Positions 6,893-15,688 of a DNA stretch of 49,339 nt are shown here, in pieces (position 1 is the stretch's first letter; the number at the start of each line of letters is the position of its first letter). Origin of the DNA: Clostridia bacterium (GTDB lineage Bacteria > Bacillota > Clostridia > Oscillospirales > CAG-272); assembly GCA_017533565.1 (NCBI GenBank), contig JAFXHU010000013.1, forward strand, positions 1-49,339, given 5' to 3'. The position numbers and the translations under genes are program-made. Below the pieces are notes generated by a model. That model ran no database searches. It was not told the origin of the DNA and was given only the letters and a program-made list of their open reading frames with translations.

Positions 6893-6935
6893 GGGAAGGT
6901 TTTGATTGATAATTATTTTTTTAAAGGAGATAGAT

Positions 6936-9900
6936 ATGAACAGTAGGACAAACAGGAGATTTCTCTCCTTGATTACCGTGATTTGCCTTTTGGCGGGGAT
7001 GGTACTTCCCTGCTTTGCGGCGAGTAGCGGAAATGCAACAAGCGGTGACGTCATCGTGTTGTTGAACAACGATTTCGAGGACAATACTTCCATCGAAAAC
7101 GGTGGAGAAATTGTAAATTACTCGGGAATTAACAAGGTGTCGGGAAGCGACAACTCATACGTTAATCTCCCGACAGTGGGATCGGATGACGAGTACTTCT
7201 CTTACGTAATCGGCAACTACCTCCCCGAATCGGGAAGCGTGGTTATACAGTTCGATTTTATGTCAACCGCTTCGATAAGCAGCGGTAATCTTCTTGCCGT
7301 ATATCCGAACTCTGCCACCAACGGTACCACTTACGGTGAGCAAAGCCTTTTAATGGGTAATTCGGGCACAAGAAGGCTTAAAGTACCGAAAACAACCACG
7401 AGCTGTGGCAGTACAACACAAAGCTCCGAGAACTTGTCGTATAGCAGCGGAACGTGGTACACGGTAGCGTTCGTATATACCTTTGAAAGCAAATCCGCGG
7501 GAACGGTTACATCCTACTTTGGAACGAAGGGCGGAACGCTTGAGCAAAAGGCGGAGTCCAGCATCACTTACAAAAACACTCCCGAGGACGTGCGTCCCAA
7601 CGGTATCCGTATCAGGAGAGTCGCCGCGGCTTGGAATATGGATAACATCAAGATATACACAAGCAACACGACGGACGCGGCTACCGCGCTTAACGTCACG
7701 ATTGCAGACAGTGACCGCGGCGCTCTTTACAATTACGCCGCAGCACCCGACATTGACGTGTCGAAATATCTCGGAAATGCGTTTTTCAAGGTCAACGTTG
7801 AAAACGCACTCAATTCCAACAACCAAAGGGTGACGGGTATAGCTGCACCGTTTATATACAACGGCGGTATATACATTCCCGCTTCCTCCCTTACGACCGT
7901 GATAGGAAGCGCACCCGCGGGAGGCACGCAGAGCGTTAACGGAATTTCCGCGGTAGAGCTTAACGATATAGGTACGGCGTACAGCGGATATCACGCCGAG
8001 TACAACTCCATGGGTCTTATCGTGGTTACAAGCAGCTCTGACACGGTGTTTGTCGAAGGGGCGGATTTGACTCTCATTCCCGTAATGCAGAGATTCCTTT
8101 TCGATAACGTAACGAGCGACGTTACAAACGCAAATTCCTTCTCGGTTAATAATATGACCGCAAGCGATCACCCGTATCTTTATGCCGACAGCGCGACCTT
8201 CGACGCTCTTCACGAGATTTACCTTTCGGGCGGAGAGAGCGATCCGACGCTTTATTCCTACATCAAAAACAGGGTCGATAACGGTTACAGCATTTACAGC
8301 AGATACAACCTCGCAAAGAGTAACGATTACACCGGCTTTAATACCACCGTCGGTATCGTAGCGGGACAGCAATCGAGCCTTGACCAAATACCTTTTACTT
8401 CAAACGAAATGGGCGGTTACGACGTCGGCGGACGTCTCGGTCAGGCGGCAAACAACAACGAAAACATTCTTGCTCTTGCATTTGCTTACCAAATGACGAG
8501 AGATGAAAACCTCGCAAGGCTTGCATACGATTACGCAATTACAATGGGTAAGTGGGAGCATTGGGGTCCCGGTCACTTCCTTAACGTTGCCGACGCAATG
8601 TCCCCCTATGCGGTTGCTTACGACTGGCTTTACGATGCTTGGACCGAGCTTGGCTTTGACGTCGAGGCAATAGAGCTTATACTCTTTACCCACGGACTTG
8701 TTCCCGCATTCCTTTCCATTAACACGAGCGACTACTCAAAGCTTCCGTGGGGAAGCCCTCCCGTTACGGGCGGTTGGAATTTCTATAACCGCGAAAACAA
8801 CTGGAACGCGGTATGCTCCGCAGGTACTACGGTGGCGGCTCTCGCCCTTGTTAACAGCACGACCGCTACCTCGGGCGTGCAAATTGACATCGCAGTCAAC
8901 GGCACGTACTCGGCGGATGTTCCGTTTACGAATTATCCCACGGGCAATACCTCGGTTCACAACGGATACAGCACTTATCAGGATTATGCGGAGTTCATTA
9001 TTAACCAGGGACTTTACAACCTTCCGAGATACGGACTTCAGCAATACATAACCGACGGCTCTTACATCGAGTCAAACGGCTATTGGTCGTACGGTACAAA
9101 CAATATTTACGAAATGGTTGCGGCACTCGTTTCCTGTACCGATGGAGGCGACTGGGGCTTGCTTGACGCTTGGGGTATGGACAGAACCGTTTACTACGCC
9201 ATTAACACTATGTCGAGCGACGGTAATTCCTTCAACTATCACGACTCCAACACCGTTTCCGCACAGGATACATCCTGGTTTATGTTCCTTGGAAGCGAAT
9301 ACGGTATGGGCGATACCACGCTCGCGGGTATCAGAAAGAATTTTAACGCAAATCTTTCGCAAAGCCCGTCCTACTACGACTGTATATACTATATGTCCGA
9401 CGAGGAAATCGGAGATTGGGATTTCCCCGACCTCCAGTATTATATGGAGGGTATCGACGGATACGTGGTGCGCGACTCCTGGGATAAAAACGAGGGAACG
9501 CTTTACGCGGGTATGATCGGTAACACCAACAATCTCGGACACGGACAGATTGACTCCGGCTCCTTCGTTTATTACAACAAGGGCACAAGATGGTTTTGTG
9601 ACATTGGCACGGAGGAATACAACGCCGCAGGATTTTGGGGCTCTACAACAAGATACGCCTACTACTCGATGGGCGGTGAGGGTAACAACAACCTTATTAT
9701 AACGAGCGAGCAATCGCTGCTTAAATACGGTCAGACACAAAGCGGCTTTGGAGAGCTGTGCGAGCATGGCAACAACGAATACGGCGCGTATGCAGTTATC
9801 GACAACACCTCCGTTTACGGCGGATTGGCGAACGATGCAAAGCGCGGATTGCTCCTTACCAACAGCAGAAAAACCACGGTAATTCAGGACGAGGCAAGCT

Positions 9901-12900
9901 TTAACAAGGCGGTTGACCTCGCTTGGATCGGTCATATTCAATCGGGAGTGCAAACCGTTCTTTCGGTTGACGGAACCATCGCGTATATGTACGACGGAAA
10001 AACCGTTATGCGCGTCAAGCTTATTGACAACAACAATAGCGGCCTTACCTTCCGAATCGGAAACGCGGCAGACGAGGAGGACAGACTTCTTAATGTAACT
10101 CTTGGTAACAATTACTCTGTATCCAACGGTGGTGAGCCGCAAAAGGACTACTCCTCCTACGAAAGACTTATTATCGAGGCAAAGGGTGTAACGAGCTTTA
10201 ACGTTGCAATCGTTATAGAGGAGCTTATCCCCGGCGAAACAAACGCCTCCACGTTTGGCTACAGATGGACCGACATTTCCGACTGGGTTCCCGAAAAGGA
10301 GCAAAGCAGCCAAGCTTCTCCGAGCGAGTCGAAGGTGGCAACCGTAACCCTCACGCCCAAGCCCACCGACGGCGAGGATGAGGTTAAGCCCGATACTCCC
10401 ATCGTTGACATTTTCGGTGTGTTCGACGCACCCGCCGCAGCTCTCGTAATGTCGGTTGTCAACGAAAGCAATGCCGTAACCGAGTCAACAACGATGATTG
10501 CAGGCTCCTTTGACGAGCTTGAAGATATTATTGCCGTTTACGGAATGGACAATATTATTACAATAGTTCTCCACGAATCCAACGAATCGTCAATTTCCAT
10601 TGAAGCACCCTGCACCGTAGATTTGAACGGAAATAAGCTTCTCGCTACATCTCCGTACTACGTTTGTACGGTTGGCGATGATTCGCTTGAATTCCATTCG
10701 GGAAGCATTACGGTAAAATGGCATCTTTCCAACGGAAGCACGGTTAATCAGCTTTATTACAACACAACGAGCGCAGTTTACAGCGGTACAATCGCCGACG
10801 GTACTACAATAACCGAGGAAAACAACGGCGACGGAACGTACAGCTACTATACTACGGGTAACGCTTGGGCGCTTTCGCCTTCTACCTCGGGTAATTACGC
10901 AAAGCAGGCAAGCGCGGAGGATATGATTGTAACAAGCGAAAATACCGATTTCTATCAAACGAGAAAGAAGTATGGCGGTGTTATGGTTACGGTCAACGGT
11001 TCAACCATTACGGGCTACCAAACCGTTGACGAAAAAACCTTCTACAGCATTTTGAATACAAGGTGCGATAGAATTTCGGTTACGAACAATTTCGATATAA
11101 CCTCAACTTCTACCGATGGTAGCATTTCTCAGGCGGGTAACATTTACTTTAACGGATATTACATCACCTACTACTCCACCGTAACGTCCGACCACTTCTT
11201 ACAAACGAGCAACTCCGCAGGCAACAAAATTGAATTCTTCGGTCCCGGCGGCGTTGATAACAGGGCACTGGCGTCAAACGCATGGTTCAAGAACGGTGTT
11301 GGCGAAACCAATTTCTACAACGTTGATTTTATTTCAACCTACACCCTTATCGACTACCGTGCGGGCAAGGGCGGTCTTTACAACTGCAACATTACGATAA
11401 ACGCAAGATGCTCCGCTGTTTCCATACACAACAGAAATAACATCAATAAAGACGAAAGCACATACCCCGACCTTACGGTAAGTGGATGCGTATTCAATTT
11501 ACCGTACATAGTCGGAGGCACGAACGTATTCACTCTTATAAACAACTCGAGAATTGAGCTTTGTGACGGTACGACCGTAAACGTCGCGAGCGGCGGAACT
11601 CTCATTAGACATCAAGCAATGACCATGAGCGACGCCACCGACTTTGATTGGGATAACTGCGATGCTGCAATGCAGGCAAGGCTCGGAGAGGTTTATCACA
11701 ACTGTGAAAAGCTTGCAGATTCCAGCAGCGCAAACCCCGATTCCAACAAGCAGGAATCCGACAAGGCAAGGCTTTTAACAAGAACTTATTACGTTGAGGG
11801 GGCAGCTTTTAAAACGGATCCGTCAAGCGACTCCACTATAAGAATTCTCGATGGAAACTTCGTTGCAAGGCAAAATAACATTGCGCTTCCCTACGTTCTC
11901 GTAAGTGACAATTACGCCAACGTAACATGGAGCTACAACGGAGCTTCGATTAAGGAAAATTGGCTTGCGGGTGAAACTCCATCAATTAGCGATGCGGCAA
12001 ATAAATTCGGTATTGAAGACGATAAAATGCTCATATTCAATACCTCCGCAGTTTCTAACGGCGAAACGCCCACTTACACCGGCGTGTTGCTCGACAAATT
12101 CGGTCTTAAGGTCAATATGTCGCTCCAGGAGGACTTTAACCTCAACTTCTTCGTTGAGAAAAAAGGAGAAATGACCTTCGTGATTGACGGCGTAGCGGTT
12201 ACACCCGATACAAGCTCTATGCCCGGCTATTACAAGGTAGCAAAGACGGGCATCAATCCCGCAAATGCAGGAAAAGCCGTGAAGCTTGAGGTAACGTATA
12301 ACGGAAATACGCTTACAAAATGGATTTCGCCTATCGACTACGCAAACAATATTCTTTCGGGCGAAAATTTCAACGAGACCGAAAAGAAGTTAATGGCAAA
12401 CGTAGTTAAGTATATCGATGCAGCGTACGTGATCAAAGGATACAACACGGGAGAAACAATTTCCGAATACACCGCAATTTCTTCAATTTACAACACGTAT
12501 AAAAAATACGCTACCGTTGCGGTAGTAGATAGGCAGGCGGTCGATCTGTCGGGCATTACCGACGCTCTTGGCGGCGCACAGCTCAATCTTGAAAGCGCAC
12601 CGAAATTCCGCTTTAACCTCAAGGAGGACTATAACGGAGAGGTAAGCTTCACCTACACCGCGAGCGACGGCTCGAGAAAAACGGCAACCTACGCGGTTGT
12701 TAACGGTCTTTGCGGCGGAAAGAGTTATATCGAAATCGGATTTAAGGCATACTTTATGACCGAGGATATCGAGATAACCACCGCAAAGGGCACCGCAACA
12801 TACAATCTCGCTAACTACTACTATTACGAGATTAACGAAAGCGGAACGCTTGCAAACCTTATCAATGCGCTTTACGCTTATTGCGAAACCGCAAGAATTT

Positions 12901-12920
12901 ACCGCGATTCTGCAAATTAA
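6936..12920 (+). CDS. Giant secreted heparinase II/III-type polysaccharide lyase
   Basis: The start at 6936 is set by AAAGGAGA upstream and a signal peptide (RRFLSLITVICLLAGMVLP, then CFAAS). The 1994-residue product has a LamG-like domain (about 25-255), a copper-amine-oxidase-N-like stalk (about 270-390), and a heparinase II/III-type region (about 430-1100). That region shows NNWNAVCSAG near 621, DGSYIE then YWSYG near 708, and GHGQIDSGSF then WFCDIG near 867, the usual lyase landmarks with a catalytic His. A beta-rich region and the C-terminal module shared with the left giant protein follow. It probably cleaves an acidic polysaccharide outside the cell by beta-elimination; the substrate is unknown. 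No anchor motif is visible. Confidence 0.85.
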   Translation: MNSRTNRRFLSLITVICLLAGMVLPCFAASSGNATSGDVIVLLNNDFEDNTSIENGGEIVNYSGINKVSGSDNSYVNLPTVGSDDEYFSYVIGNYLPESGSVVIQFDFMSTASISSGNLLAVYPNSATNGTTYGEQSLLMGNSGTRRLKVPKTTTSCGSTTQSSENLSYSSGTWYTVAFVYTFESKSAGTVTSYFGTKGGTLEQKAESSITYKNTPEDVRPNGIRIRRVAAAWNMDNIKIYTSNTTDAATALNVTIADSDRGALYNYAAAPDIDVSKYLGNAFFKVNVENALNSNNQRVTGIAAPFIYNGGIYIPASSLTTVIGSAPAGGTQSVNGISAVELNDIGTAYSGYHAEYNSMGLIVVTSSSDTVFVEGADLTLIPVMQRFLFDNVTSDVTNANSFSVNNMTASDHPYLYADSATFDALHEIYLSGGESDPTLYSYIKNRVDNGYSIYSRYNLAKSNDYTGFNTTVGIVAGQQSSLDQIPFTSNEMGGYDVGGRLGQAANNNENILALAFAYQMTRDENLARLAYDYAITMGKWEHWGPGHFLNVADAMSPYAVAYDWLYDAWTELGFDVEAIELILFTHGLVPAFLSINTSDYSKLPWGSPPVTGGWNFYNRENNWNAVCSAGTTVAALALVNSTTATSGVQIDIAVNGTYSADVPFTNYPTGNTSVHNGYSTYQDYAEFIINQGLYNLPRYGLQQYITDGSYIESNGYWSYGTNNIYEMVAALVSCTDGGDWGLLDAWGMDRTVYYAINTMSSDGNSFNYHDSNTVSAQDTSWFMFLGSEYGMGDTTLAGIRKNFNANLSQSPSYYDCIYYMSDEEIGDWDFPDLQYYMEGIDGYVVRDSWDKNEGTLYAGMIGNTNNLGHGQIDSGSFVYYNKGTRWFCDIGTEEYNAAGFWGSTTRYAYYSMGGEGNNNLIITSEQSLLKYGQTQSGFGELCEHGNNEYGAYAVIDNTSVYGGLANDAKRGLLLTNSRKTTVIQDEASFNKAVDLAWIGHIQSGVQTVLSVDGTIAYMYDGKTVMRVKLIDNNNSGLTFRIGNAADEEDRLLNVTLGNNYSVSNGGEPQKDYSSYERLIIEAKGVTSFNVAIVIEELIPGETNASTFGYRWTDISDWVPEKEQSSQASPSESKVATVTLTPKPTDGEDEVKPDTPIVDIFGVFDAPAAALVMSVVNESNAVTESTTMIAGSFDELEDIIAVYGMDNIITIVLHESNESSISIEAPCTVDLNGNKLLATSPYYVCTVGDDSLEFHSGSITVKWHLSNGSTVNQLYYNTTSAVYSGTIADGTTITEENNGDGTYSYYTTGNAWALSPSTSGNYAKQASAEDMIVTSENTDFYQTRKKYGGVMVTVNGSTITGYQTVDEKTFYSILNTRCDRISVTNNFDITSTSTDGSISQAGNIYFNGYYITYYSTVTSDHFLQTSNSAGNKIEFFGPGGVDNRALASNAWFKNGVGETNFYNVDFISTYTLIDYRAGKGGLYNCNITINARCSAVSIHNRNNINKDESTYPDLTVSGCVFNLPYIVGGTNVFTLINNSRIELCDGTTVNVASGGTLIRHQAMTMSDATDFDWDNCDAAMQARLGEVYHNCEKLADSSSANPDSNKQESDKARLLTRTYYVEGAAFKTDPSSDSTIRILDGNFVARQNNIALPYVLVSDNYANVTWSYNGASIKENWLAGETPSISDAANKFGIEDDKMLIFNTSAVSNGETPTYTGVLLDKFGLKVNMSLQEDFNLNFFVEKKGEMTFVIDGVAVTPDTSSMPGYYKVAKTGINPANAGKAVKLEVTYNGNTLTKWISPIDYANNILSGENFNETEKKLMANVVKYIDAAYVIKGYNTGETISEYTAISSIYNTYKKYATVAVVDRQAVDLSGITDALGGAQLNLESAPKFRFNLKEDYNGEVSFTYTASDGSRKTATYAVVNGLCGGKSYIEIGFKAYFMTEDIEITTAKGTATYNLANYYYYEINESGTLANLINALYAYCETARIYRDSAN

Positions 12921-12976: not shown

Positions 12977-13726
12977 TTATTTTTTGCGGTGTGAGGTAGT
13001 TGGACGTAAGCTTTTTTTCTCCTTTTTTTCCTCATCCAGCATTTTCAGATACAACCACACTATGCCGGCGAACATTAATACTATTGCCCATATTTGCAAT
13101 ACCGTGAGGTTGAGAAGGGTTTTTTCGCCCCTTCTGAAAAAGTCCCAAAAGAATCGCGAAAAGCCATGTACAAGGAGAAGCACGGGATAAATTTTCCCGC
13201 CACCGTCCCATTTTTTCGCGATAAGAAAGAAAACAACCAAAAGGAAAAAGAAAAGGTGAGTTAAGCCGTCATATACGTTAGTCGGAAAAACGTAGCATTT
13301 CATAAACGGATTCCACATACCGCTTTCCGTAATTTTTCCGCAACAGCAGCCGGTAAAGCTGCAGGCGAAATGTATTAATCCCTGCGAAAACAAATATAAC
13401 GTAGCAACAAAATCAAGTCCTCGCGAAAAATCAATTTTCAAAAGCCGAAAAACCAATATATAGATAGGAACGACAAACAAATAAATACGCGTTAAAGCGA
13501 GTCCAGCCATCTCACCGACTATGACCCCCTCGAGCCATCTCAAAAGAGGAGTCACGGTAAGGCGCATTGTGTATTCACATCCAACGATAAGAAGTGCGTG
13601 CCACCATTTTATTTTCATTTTCTTGGCAAGGAAAAGTCCAAATAAAACCTCAAGAAGAATTATAAGGTAACCGTATATGGAAGCAACCGTGCTTAACATA
13701 CCCGATTCATCAAGCGCTCGTATCAT
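12977..13726 (-). CDS. Lgt-like membrane protein (prolipoprotein diacylglyceryl transferase family)
   Basis: A 249-residue membrane protein with about seven hydrophobic segments. The central FTGCCCGK corresponds to the AGCCYG signature of Firmicutes Lgt proteins, FPTNVYDG to the HPTQLYE-type motif, and FSRFFWDFFR to the RFLIEFFR-type motif, so the fold is probably Lgt. The motifs are divergent and it may be a paralogue rather than the housekeeping enzyme. Lgt attaches diacylglycerol to the lipobox Cys of lipoproteins. AAAGGATG precedes the start. The gene overlaps the stop of the upstream XRE regulator's frame by only a few bases of spacing, so the two form an operon. The tail is Lys-rich. 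Confidence 0.65.
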   Translation of the reverse strand: MIRALDESGMLSTVASIYGYLIILLEVLFGLFLAKKMKIKWWHALLIVGCEYTMRLTVTPLLRWLEGVIVGEMAGLALTRIYLFVVPIYILVFRLLKIDFSRGLDFVATLYLFSQGLIHFACSFTGCCCGKITESGMWNPFMKCYVFPTNVYDGLTHLFFFLLVVFFLIAKKWDGGGKIYPVLLLVHGFSRFFWDFFRRGEKTLLNLTVLQIWAIVLMFAGIVWLYLKMLDEEKKEKKSLRPTTSHRKK

Positions 13727-13728
13727 TT

Positions 13729-13980
13729 TTACATCCTTTCATCTACGCCGAGGAGCCACATAGGACTCACAGACAGGCATTCGGCAATTTTTAAAAGCTC
13801 GTAATCGGCAACGAAGCGTGTGCCGATTTCAATTCGCGAGAGGCTGTCCCTTTCGATGGTGATGCCCATAACCTGCAGCCTTGCGGCAAGGTCGGTTTGC
13901 GATATGCGGCGCTTTTGCCGCGCTTCCCTTACCCTATCTCCGCAGAGGTTTTTCCTCCCGTTATAATCGTAAATTTTCAT
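13729..13980 (-). CDS. XRE-family HTH regulator
   Basis: An 83-residue protein that is almost entirely a helix-turn-helix domain: RVREARQKRRISQTDLA, then DSLSRIEIG and a closing SPMWLLG typical of Cro/CI-type regulators. It binds DNA in the cytoplasm. It is the first gene of a two-gene unit with the Lgt-like gene and may regulate that unit. AAAGGTGAAG lies just upstream of the start. Upstream, TGTGTTAAAG recurs in both orientations around 13990-14060, a possible operator for autoregulation. Confidence 0.8.
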   Translation of the reverse strand: MKIYDYNGRKNLCGDRVREARQKRRISQTDLAARLQVMGITIERDSLSRIEIGTRFVADYELLKIAECLSVSPMWLLGVDERM

Positions 13981-14143: not shown

Positions 14144-14172
14144 TTGACAAAGCGGGGGCTTTGTGCTATAAT
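14144..14172 (+). promoter_or_regulatory. Consensus promoter for the CNNM-family gene and its leader
   Basis: TTGACA, 17 bases, TATAAT: a perfect SigA-type promoter. Transcription would begin near 14179, giving a leader of about 210 bases before the transporter start. Confidence 0.9.
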
Positions 14173-14224
14173 ATACCTCGTATATCGTCGCAAGAACGTA
14201 CGGCGAAATTTTCGGGAGGATGAT

Positions 14225-14275
14225 ATGGACGACGCGGACGCGGACACTTGTCAGCACGCTTTCATATTCATATAG
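14225..14275 (+). CDS. Acidic leader peptide upstream of the CNNM-family gene
   Basis: A 16-codon reading frame encodes MDDADADTCQHAFIFI and has its own strong ribosome binding site, GGGAGGA, 4 bases before the ATG. Four of the first seven residues are Asp. Its stop lies a few bases before a terminator hairpin at 14278-14318, which in turn lies ahead of a gene of the CNNM/CorC family. The order promoter, RBS, short peptide, terminator, gene is that of transcription attenuation. Acidic leader peptides upstream of Mg2+ transporters are known from mgtL of Salmonella. The similarity here is one of design, not sequence, and function is inferred. Confidence 0.6.
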   Translation: MDDADADTCQHAFIFI

Positions 14276-14277
14276 GG

Positions 14278-14318
14278 TAGGCATAGGCATACGCTTCGGG
14301 TATGGCTACGCCTTTTTT
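14278..14318 (+). terminator. Attenuator-type terminator in the CNNM leader
   Basis: GGCATAGGCATAC pairs with GTATGGCTACGCC (11 pairs, two mismatches) around a CTTCGG-type loop and is followed by seven T residues. It lies between the leader peptide and the transporter gene. A smaller TTCCC/GGGAA hairpin at 14341-14354 follows. Confidence 0.7.
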
Positions 14319-14389
14319 TGCTGTTTTTCCTTCCGAGCTATTCCCTTTCGGGAAAATAATCAAAATTGAGAGGTTTTTAACACTTTATT

Positions 14390-15688
14390 ATGGACGGACA
14401 CTTATGGATGCTGGTAATTATTATACTTTGCATTATCCTGTCTGCTTGGTTTTCGGCAACCGAAACCGCATTTAACACCTTTAACAGAATAAGAATGAAG
14501 GGCTTTGCCGAAAAGGGTAACAAAAAAGCAAAGCGCGCGCTTAAGCTGGCGGACGATTACGACACGCTTATTTCCACCATTCTCGTCGGTAACAACATCG
14601 TCAACATTGCTTCGGCTACGCTTGCTACCCTGTTTTTCGTGGCAATTGCCAAAAACGAAGGCTCTTTGCTTTCGGAGGATTTCGCGCCCACCCTTTCCAC
14701 CATCGTTATGACGGTGGCGGTGCTTACCTTTGGCGAGATTATTCCAAAGACGCTCGCAAAGCAATTCCCCGAAAAGTTTTCAATGTTCTCCGCACCGTTT
14801 ATTTACGCTCTGCTTATCGTTCTTACACCGATAACCTTCATTTTCGGTCAGCTTCAAAAGCTCCTTTTTAAGATTTTCAAGAAGGACGAGGACACGGGTA
14901 TGACCGAGGAGGAGCTTATCTCGATTATCGAGGAGGCAGAGGAGGACGGTAATATCGACGAGGAGGAGTCCACTCTTATAAAGAGTGCAATCGAGTTCAA
15001 CGACCTTGAGGTTGGGGATATTTTCACCCCGCGTATCGATATAACGGCGGTTGAGTCCGACGTGTCGAAGGATGAGCTTGAGAGAATATTCTCCGAGTCG
15101 GGCTACTCCCGTATTCCGATTTACGAGGACGACCTCGACAACATTACGGGTATCATTTATTACAAGGACTTTTTCACCACGGTTTACAAGCGCACCGCTC
15201 CGATCTCGGATATTGTTAAGCCCGTTATTTACGTCACGAAGTCAATGAAGATTAACGACCTTTTGAAGGAGCTTCAGGAAAAGCAGCTTCACCTTGCGGT
15301 TGTTACCGACGAATACGGCTCCACGGCGGGTATCGTTACTCTCGAGGATATTCTCGAGGAAATAGTCGGCGAAATCTGGGACGAGCATGACGAAATAATT
15401 GAGGAAATCAAGGAAATCGGCGAAAAGGAATACATAGTTTCGGGTATGGCTAACATAGAGAAGCTCTTTGACGAGCTTGACCTTGAGGAGCCGGAGGAGG
15501 AAATCGAGTCGACTACCGTTAACGGATGGGCGATGGATATCCTCGGAAGAATTCCCGAGGAGGGCGACAGCTTTGAGGCTCTCGGTCTTACCGTAAAGGT
15601 TCTTAAGATGGACGGACGCCGTATTGAGGACCTCCACATCCTCGACAGCCGCGAAAGCGAAAGCGAAGAGGAAGAAAACGACGATTAA
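14390..15688 (+). CDS. CNNM/CorC (HlyC) family membrane protein with CBS domains
   Basis: A 432-residue protein of the UPF0053/CNNM family. An N-terminal DUF21 membrane domain (about 1-190) has four hydrophobic segments and the family motifs LVGNNIVN and GEIIPKTLA. Two CBS domains lie at about 205-325 and a CorC_HlyC domain at about 345-425. Characterised relatives such as MpfA in Staphylococcus and human CNNM proteins move Mg2+ or affect its efflux; older names are haemolysin C-like or CorC. It acts in the cell membrane with a cytosolic nucleotide-binding CBS pair. The start lacks a well-spaced ribosome binding site (GAGAGG is 15 bases away). Expression is probably controlled by the leader peptide and terminator upstream. 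Confidence 0.9.
   Translation: MDGHLWMLVIIILCIILSAWFSATETAFNTFNRIRMKGFAEKGNKKAKRALKLADDYDTLISTILVGNNIVNIASATLATLFFVAIAKNEGSLLSEDFAPTLSTIVMTVAVLTFGEIIPKTLAKQFPEKFSMFSAPFIYALLIVLTPITFIFGQLQKLLFKIFKKDEDTGMTEEELISIIEEAEEDGNIDEEESTLIKSAIEFNDLEVGDIFTPRIDITAVESDVSKDELERIFSESGYSRIPIYEDDLDNITGIIYYKDFFTTVYKRTAPISDIVKPVIYVTKSMKINDLLKELQEKQLHLAVVTDEYGSTAGIVTLEDILEEIVGEIWDEHDEIIEEIKEIGEKEYIVSGMANIEKLFDELDLEEPEEEIESTTVNGWAMDILGRIPEEGDSFEALGLTVKVLKMDGRRIEDLHILDSRESESEEEENDD

Follow-up and report, generated by a model that had tools for sequence, protein, structure and literature searches.

In pyrL/pyrBI of E. coli the leader open reading frame (ORF) reaches an intrinsic terminator, a ribosome that follows the polymerase closely masks this terminator and no antiterminator is needed, while in the M-box (ykoK) riboswitch (RF00380) Mg2+ controls Gram-positive transporters through a terminator. 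The mgtL leader of mgtA in E. coli and Salmonella is short, with acidic and proline residues just after its start and a Mg2+ transporter downstream; loss of the ribosome on the acidic MgtL peptide is the sensing step, the terminator is Rho-dependent and the Mg2+ importer is ON at low Mg2+ (PMC11282234). In mgtQ, upstream of mgtB in Salmonella, Asp2 and Glu5 of a short ORF are likewise needed for control, but it acts on mgtB translation via stem-loops 1:2, 2:3 and 3:4 and has no terminator read-out (PMC8092293). Here we describe a leader in a stretch of 49,339 nucleotides (nt) from a Clostridia bacterium (Oscillospirales; CAG-272; contig JAFXHU010000013.1, positions 1 to 49,339), the whole of which is called the window, where a short Asp-rich frame and an intrinsic terminator stand ahead of a CNNM/CorC-type transporter gene. 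The most probable reading, to which we assign a probability of roughly 60%, is that it is a leader-peptide transcription attenuator of a class that in Clostridia controls the genes of divalent-cation exporters, with a masking read-out, and that it is ON at high Mg2+.

CNNM relatives were found in 65 of 69 genomes of the genus, and the core set used below consists of 31 CNNM loci from 31 genomes with at least 59% protein identity, the window included (L001-L030, L139). The features of the window locus are as follows.

14144..14172, + strand: promoter of the sigma-70 type with extended -10, TTGACA-17-TATAAT, 12 of 12 consensus matches
14185..14206, + strand: small 5' hairpin right after the inferred transcription start, from a single-sequence fold
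14215..14219, + strand: Shine-Dalgarno (SD) sequence GGAGG of the leader, read from the sequence, 5 nt before the ATG
14225..14275, + strand: leader ORF MDDADADTCQHAFIFI, 16 codons, with TAG stop at 14273-14275; frame conserved in 31 of 31 genus loci
14228..14245, + strand: acidic stretch, codons 2-7 (D D A D A D)
14279..14319, + strand: intrinsic terminator, hairpin 14280-14312 and U7 14313-14319, with the stem 3-4 nt past the leader stop
14368..14373, + strand: SD-like GAGAGG, presumably that of the CNNM gene, 16 nt before its ATG
14390..15688, + strand: CNNM/CorC-type transporter gene, 432 amino acids (aa); Pfam CNNM 174.8 bits, CBS, CorC_HlyC

The promoter, the SD sequence, the 16-codon frame, the 11-pair hairpin with seven T's and the CNNM gene are all exactly as the original prediction for this DNA had described them. 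TTGACA lies at 14144-14149 and TATAAT at 14167-14172, with a 17 nt spacer and a TG extension, and across the 31 genus loci the best promoter match per locus is 8-12 of 12, being at least 10 in 30 of them. The terminator hairpin is made of 11 pairs (GGC/GCC, TAG/CTA, CATAC/GTATG) with two 1x1 mismatches. In the window a GC follows the terminator U-run (14313-14331), the genus loci often have a second U-run after this GC, and distant leaders have G[CT] after the U-run.

When the genus loci were compared, all 31 had an SD-like motif, an acidic frame of 14-27 codons, a terminator and the CNNM gene. Asp/Glu-rich frames before terminators upstream of the CNNM genes of relatives, for which the original prediction had proposed a search, are thus present throughout the set, and the outcome that it had named as speaking against it, conservation of the hairpin only, is not what we find: frame, acidity and stop position are kept in 31 of 31. 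Residues 2-9 hold three Asp or Glu in 8 loci, four in 17 and five in 6, and residues 2-10 of the 31 leaders contain 118 Asp, 4 Glu and zero Lys or Arg, compared to 961 Asp and 1487 Glu in the CNNM genes, counted in 30 of the loci. In 28 of 31 leaders the acidic stretch is followed by a Cys, within residues 7-12, and several distant leaders of the acidic and acid-proline kinds also have C, H or N there. In alignment A1 of these leaders, which runs from the SD sequence to the U-run, gaps that fall in the acidic stretch measure 3, 6 or 9 nt by eye, and the distance from ATG to stem (51-65 nt) is spread over the three classes modulo 3 as 9, 12 and 10 loci, which shows that it is the frame that is kept and not the spacing. 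The leader stop ends between -9 and +27 nt from the base of the terminator stem in all 31 loci, whereas the other two frames from the same start have a stop within -12 to +28 nt in only 11 (+1) and 10 (+2) of 31. Codon choice in the leaders also departs from that of the CNNM genes, namely in GAC (104:16, Fisher p 8.7e-10), GGG (16 of 39 Gly, 4.9e-14), GCG (31 of 53 Ala, 4.1e-7) and TGT (39:4, 2.7e-6), which points to a constraint beyond the amino acids. The codon bias and the Cys may reflect extra constraints at the RNA level, at the codon level or from metal binding.

RNAalifold on A1 gave the terminator as the sole consensus structure, with 9 pairs of which 5 are changed on both sides. If the edge of a ribosome whose A site holds the stop codon is placed 12 nt beyond the first base of that codon, the ribosome would cover 3 nt or more of the stem in 27 of the 31 genus loci; for a ribosome with codon 9 in its P site the assumed edge is 12-26 nt short of the stem in all 31. 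The leader ORF reaches the terminator in 31 of 31 loci, which is the feature that is like pyrBI; the variable in pyrBI is the speed of the polymerase (UTP), whereas the one proposed here would be the survival of the ribosome on the acidic nascent chain. The complementarity of the leader to the 5' arm of the terminator is below that of its own shuffles (mean z +0.73, standard error (SE) 0.16, 31 loci), which speaks against an antiterminator except in L006, the one locus with strong complementarity to this arm (z -3.0), and there is no excess of complementarity to the 3' arm (z -0.21, SE 0.17). RNAalifold, single-sequence folds and the duplex-versus-shuffle test found no conserved competing or antiterminator stem. 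A pairing of ACCGUA in the leader with UACGGU in the 3' arm, which is possible by eye in some loci, was dropped as an antiterminator because the arm varies (UAUGGC/UACGGU) and the leader does not show a matching change by eye; ACC-GUA in the leader can also be read as Thr-Val.

These observations bear on the question whether the polarity could be that of mgtL, with ribosome loss on the Asp stretch freeing an antiterminator and turning the CNNM gene ON at low Mg2+. Both mgtL and mgtQ work in this direction (PMC11282234, PMC8092293), and the ACCGUA/UACGGU pairing and the 5' arm complementarity of L006 would fit it. However, there is no consensus alternative structure, the mean 5' arm complementarity is below that of shuffles, 26 of the 63 leader ORFs described below span the whole hairpin and leave little room for an antiterminator, and the CNNM/CorB-C family has been described as one of Mg2+ efflux proteins (PMC9276622), from which a polarity opposite to that of mgtL is expected. 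We therefore regard such a polarity as rather unlikely. The analogy to mgtL drawn by the original prediction holds for the acidic N-terminus and parts from it in what follows: here there is an intrinsic U-tract terminator that touches or lies inside the ORF, alternative stems are not conserved, and the genes are of the exporter type, so that reversed polarity is expected. A further Rho effect beside the intrinsic terminator is possible.

Unlike in the M-box, no RNA aptamer was found here. The M-box RF00380 was absent from all 69 genus genomes (0 of 69) in a search with stricter filters whose control recovered the M-box in 2 of 14 known genomes, the Rfam scan of the window gave five tRNAs and no other match at gathering score, and a laxer Rfam scan of the leader gave only matches far under the gathering scores. 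A riboswitch or other known RNA family was set aside on the ground that no Rfam match reached the gathering score and the M-box was absent from the 69-genome search. The whole leader taken as one RNA is not unusual in stability (z -1.46).

An exact DNA pattern search found 9 of the 69 genus genomes, all of them known CNNM leaders, and since this pattern was too narrow covariance models were used instead. Model R1, built from A1, gave 33 matches below 1e-6 over the 69 genus genomes, one per genome; 31 of them are the loci that built R1 and the remaining two also precede CNNM genes, while the next match, L266 at E 9e-6, is a terminator that no leader of this kind precedes. In 295 genomes of the order, R1 found leaders before CNNM genes and before P2-type ATPases, and 20 regions taken from R1 matches in genus and order comprised 8 with CNNM, 3 with an ATPase, one with another target (L277) and 8 that had no leader of this type. 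The best models for the ATPase are Ca2+-type, with 391.6 bits for the PMR1-type and 354.5 for the SERCA-type, which for a 528-residue part are below the full-length cut-offs. Thirty ATPase loci were examined, other ATPase matches, including the window genome's own (48%), being outside this count. The five closest relatives (68-78% identity) all have an acidic leader and a terminator, with MDDADSSDADR as the peptide in three and MDDGDRSN and MDDSDCTD in the other two, and the 25 loci at about 44-49% identity have a single acidic ORF (L293), which is without the required T-run pattern. The leader class was seen before P2-type (Ca2+-like) ATPases at L276, L283, L284, L286-L290 and L316-L321.

A second model, R2, was made of the leader alone from 27 CNNM and ATPase leaders and was searched against 686 listed genomes, 295 of the order and 391 of the class, a few of which are in both. 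At E<=1e-6, 39 of 42 distinct matches lie directly before a CNNM gene (30) or a P2-type ATPase gene (9), and when the nine loci that built R2 are removed 30 of 33 still do so. The three others are L320, where a decayed ATPase follows, L344 at a contig end, and L332, which has neither target. The leader of L320 looks intact, and the alignment of the decayed ATPase behind it starts at residue 398. Behind the acidic leader MDDTDSDAAPFCHQ... and terminator of L277 and L332 there is neither a CNNM nor an ATPase gene, and an AI-2E family transporter is encoded about 0.5 kb further downstream. At E<=1e-3 there were 88 distinct matches, of which the 77 examined divide into 53 CNNM, 10 ATPase and 14 other; the weak matches are mixed, as 10 of 13 'other' ones among 57 loci are at E 1e-4 to 1e-3. 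Some of the CNNM targets at E<=1e-3 are only 24-33% identical to the window CNNM protein, and four of these were confirmed by Pfam. The presence of leaders before such distant CNNM genes and before ATPases argues that the leader tracks function, as it is predicted from the sequences, and not one gene lineage, and neither this gene nor this genus is alone in having the device. Since the frame is conserved in 31 of 31 genus loci and 39 of 42 R2 matches are on target, an attenuator controlled by translation of the acidic frame, as the original prediction had proposed, appears well supported by the comparison of genomes.

The 63 leaders with a CNNM or ATPase target at E<=1e-3 were used for a test of the frame. 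The frame runs through the T-run in 26 of 63, compared to 14 for the +1 and 1 for the +2 frame, and 18 of these 26 have an (A/V/C)FL(C/R/S) motif near the C-terminus. These data bear on the simpler explanation that the ORF is an ordinary mini-gene with its own terminator, at which the polymerase outruns the ribosome and read-through is constant, or that its peptide acts in trans. Terminators next to a stop codon are common in B. subtilis (PMC7858274), but a mini-gene would not be expected to show the tight link to two exporter families, a range of quite dissimilar acidic peptides ahead of one gene family, or ORFs that extend across the terminator (26 of 63), and this explanation is improbable.

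Beyond the genus, upstream regions of other CNNM genes were passed through a strict filter that asked for an SD-like motif, a frame of 8-60 aa and at least four Asp or Glu in residues 2-11, or else the acid-proline form, with 20 dinucleotide shuffles as the control. Eleven loci duplicating genus loci and two with short upstream sequence were omitted, and the 154 others were not further dereplicated. The filter was passed by 23 of 31 genus loci (shuffles mean 0.1, max 1; reverse complement 0) and by 42 of the 154 other loci (shuffles mean 2.05, max 5; reverse complement 0), the latter being 20 acidic and 22 acid-proline leaders. Some failures are due to the strictness of the filter, since inspection by eye shows acidic leaders at L033, L144, L146, L147 and L149. 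Of the acidic CNNM leaders that lie outside the core set, 30 of 32 have the frame-end geometry (all except L085 and L093), with 24 for the +1 and 1 for the +2 frame. Leaders beginning MDEPP precede CNNM in genomes named Flavonifractor, Oscillibacter, Pseudoflavonifractor and similar (L101-L132), for example MDEPPCTDASFDE in Pseudoflavonifractor sp. MSJ-37 (L116) and MDEPPLQ... in Pseudoflavonifractor sp. 524-17 (L128), and also occur in some genomes of the family to which the window belongs (L035, L040, L041). MDIPPLCH... and MDDVP[LI]PR... leaders were also found before CNNM, and in most of the acid-proline leaders inspected a hairpin with a T-run meets or overlaps the end of the frame. Closest to MgtL in looks are the MDEPP and MDDVPLPR leaders; MgtL has an EPDP motif (PMC11282234). 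The leaders at L031 and L032 begin MEEPPLC and have no clear terminator; an in-frame CCTCC might base-pair with AAGGAG ahead of the CNNM start, which is a possible translational version of the leader control. The CNNM proteins at L148-L198 often start with MDPSS, MDGDS or MGDGS by eye, and this is perhaps a destabilising N-terminus within the gene, as has been reported for CorC (YbeX) itself (Chadani 2021, via PMC12421838); in CorC/YbeX it is inside the coding gene, whereas in the leaders it stands in a separate frame ahead of the gene.

The variety of these peptides helps to weigh two further explanations. In one, the nascent peptide would bind metal directly through DxDxD(G), Cys and His/Asn ligands, and binding, not ribosome stability, would set stalling or release: the acidic chain, inside the exit tunnel or at its mouth, would be the receptor for Mg2+, Ca2+ or a transition metal; once it was occupied the ribosome would move on and mask the terminator. 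The alternating Asp, the D:E ratio of 118:4, the Cys at residues 7-12 in 28 of 31 leaders, the DGDSSG-like loops in distant leaders and the handling of divalent cations by both target families are in its favor, but the MDEPP leaders do not have such a ligand set and most ATPase leaders have no Cys, and we give it little credence. If true, it would be a nascent-peptide metal sensor without RNA aptamer or protein regulator. The other is a classic amino-acid attenuator that senses Asp-tRNA, which several clustered Asp codons in a leader with a terminator might suggest; the targets, however, are CNNM and P2-type ATPase transporters, so that the codons do not match the pathway of the product, the acid-proline variants often have one Asp, and there is no conserved competing stem, all of which makes it hardly credible.

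This brings us back to the attenuator with a masking read-out and to how it would work. The frame, its acidity, the geometry of stop and terminator, the sole consensus structure and the association with CNNM and P2-type ATPase genes are computed from the genomes, and from them we infer ribosome loss on leader peptides in Clostridia, the Mg2+ signal, the masking read-out and the ON-at-high-Mg2+ polarity. A strong promoter would give a leader RNA with a short frame that has alternating Asp at its start, or MDEPP elsewhere, and whose end lies at an intrinsic terminator, within it or past it. Having come through the acidic stretch, a ribosome would reach the 5' arm of the terminator and block its folding, and the exporter would be transcribed. 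At low Mg2+, or perhaps when the total cation pool is low, ribosomes would be poorly stabilised and would stall or dissociate on the acidic nascent chain, and with the ribosome lost 12-26 nt short of the stem the terminator would fold and the exporter would be off. Masking by the surviving ribosome, on the pyrBI principle, is the simplest reading. D/E-rich N-terminal chains have been found to abort translation of E. coli and eukaryotic ribosomes, which Mg2+ counteracts (PMC9718836), and the leaders have the D/E-rich or acid-proline N-terminal nascent chain that defines intrinsic ribosome destabilisation (IRD) (PMC9718836, PMC11282234). By analogy, Mg2+ is a plausible signal. Expression of corC in Salmonella is higher in high Mg2+ (PMC12421838), and this, together with the efflux function, fits a device that is ON at high Mg2+. 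Mg2+ efflux by the CNNM proteins concerned, and with it their substrate and direction of transport, is predicted from the family. PaeA, a CNNM relative, is reported to be a polyamine exporter, and the signal might therefore be the ribosome-stabilising cation pool at large.

Several points weigh against this reading. On the side of distribution, 112 of the 154 other CNNM loci fail the strict filter, and an R2 match at E<=1e-3 was found in only 51 of 295 order genomes and 34 of 391 class genomes. On the side of geometry, the frame ends at most 60 nt before the T-run in 63 of 63 leaders, but the +1 frame does so in 56 of 63 (+2, 5 of 63), and the ribosome edge is only 0-2 nt into the stem in 4 of the 31 genus loci. 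In the acid-proline leaders the frame-end geometry is seen in 10 of 10, compared to 10 of 10 (+1) and 5 of 10 (+2) for the other frames, 5 of 15 loci that gave no terminator being left out and the terminator of L128 being doubtful (-3.3 kcal/mol); as the +1 frame is also at 10 of 10, this geometry proves nothing. In B. subtilis, whose RNA polymerase runs ahead of the ribosomes, it is usual for a stop to lie a few nt upstream of a terminator (PMC7858274), so that geometry alone is no proof of masking and may in part be due to a mini-gene, and transcription and translation may be uncoupled in Firmicutes. The window peptide has only four Asp within its first seven residues, a modest stretch, and only one of the tested yeast ORFs with four D/E aborted strongly (PMC9718836). 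The substrate and the transport direction of the leader-linked CNNM proteins rest on their assignment to the family. Finally, the attenuator model does not account for the codon bias, for the conserved Cys or for the use of Asp in preference to Glu.

A few other observations concern the locus and its surroundings. A hairpin at the position of 14185-14206 (GUAUAACGC...GCG-like), which lies outside alignment A1, is seen by eye in many relatives. The spacing from SD to start is unusually long, about 14-20 nt by eye, in the CNNM gene, its relatives and the MDEPP leaders (L101-L132). The PaeA and CorC models of NCBIfam match these CNNM proteins below cut-off, and no NCBIfam cut-off is reached. Adjoining helix-turn-helix (HTH) and LGT-like genes lie on the minus strand at 12977-13980, divergent from the CNNM unit, the LGT-like gene matching the prolipoprotein diacylglyceryl transferase family in its C-terminal part with 51.8 bits, and a frame of 2004 residues at 6906-12920 looks secreted, by eye from its translation.

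The original prediction knew of no such device for CNNM proteins in Clostridia. Searches of the open PMC literature, which covers few subscription papers and no preprints, brought up no description in Clostridia of an acidic leader upstream of CNNM or P2-type ATPase genes; passages of two surveys of bacterial noncoding RNAs and upstream ORFs (PMC6429828, PMC11109978) are part of what was covered. Relative to mgtL and mgtQ, what sets this leader apart is the intrinsic terminator, the exporter-type targets and, probably, the reversed polarity. If the reading is right, ribosome fragility on acidic peptides as a gauge of Mg2+ or of cations would recur in Clostridia, beyond the enteric mgt loci, wired to CNNM proteins and Ca2+-type P-ATPases, probably with the opposite sign and with a simpler read-out. 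It would provide a mechanism for the control of CNNM in a genus in which no M-box was detected by our search, and from it one could predict in which gut bacteria a leader controls the export of cations. It would also make testable both the generality of ribosome destabilisation as a regulatory input and the existence of ribosome-dependent attenuation in Firmicutes, whose polymerases are thought to outrun their ribosomes.

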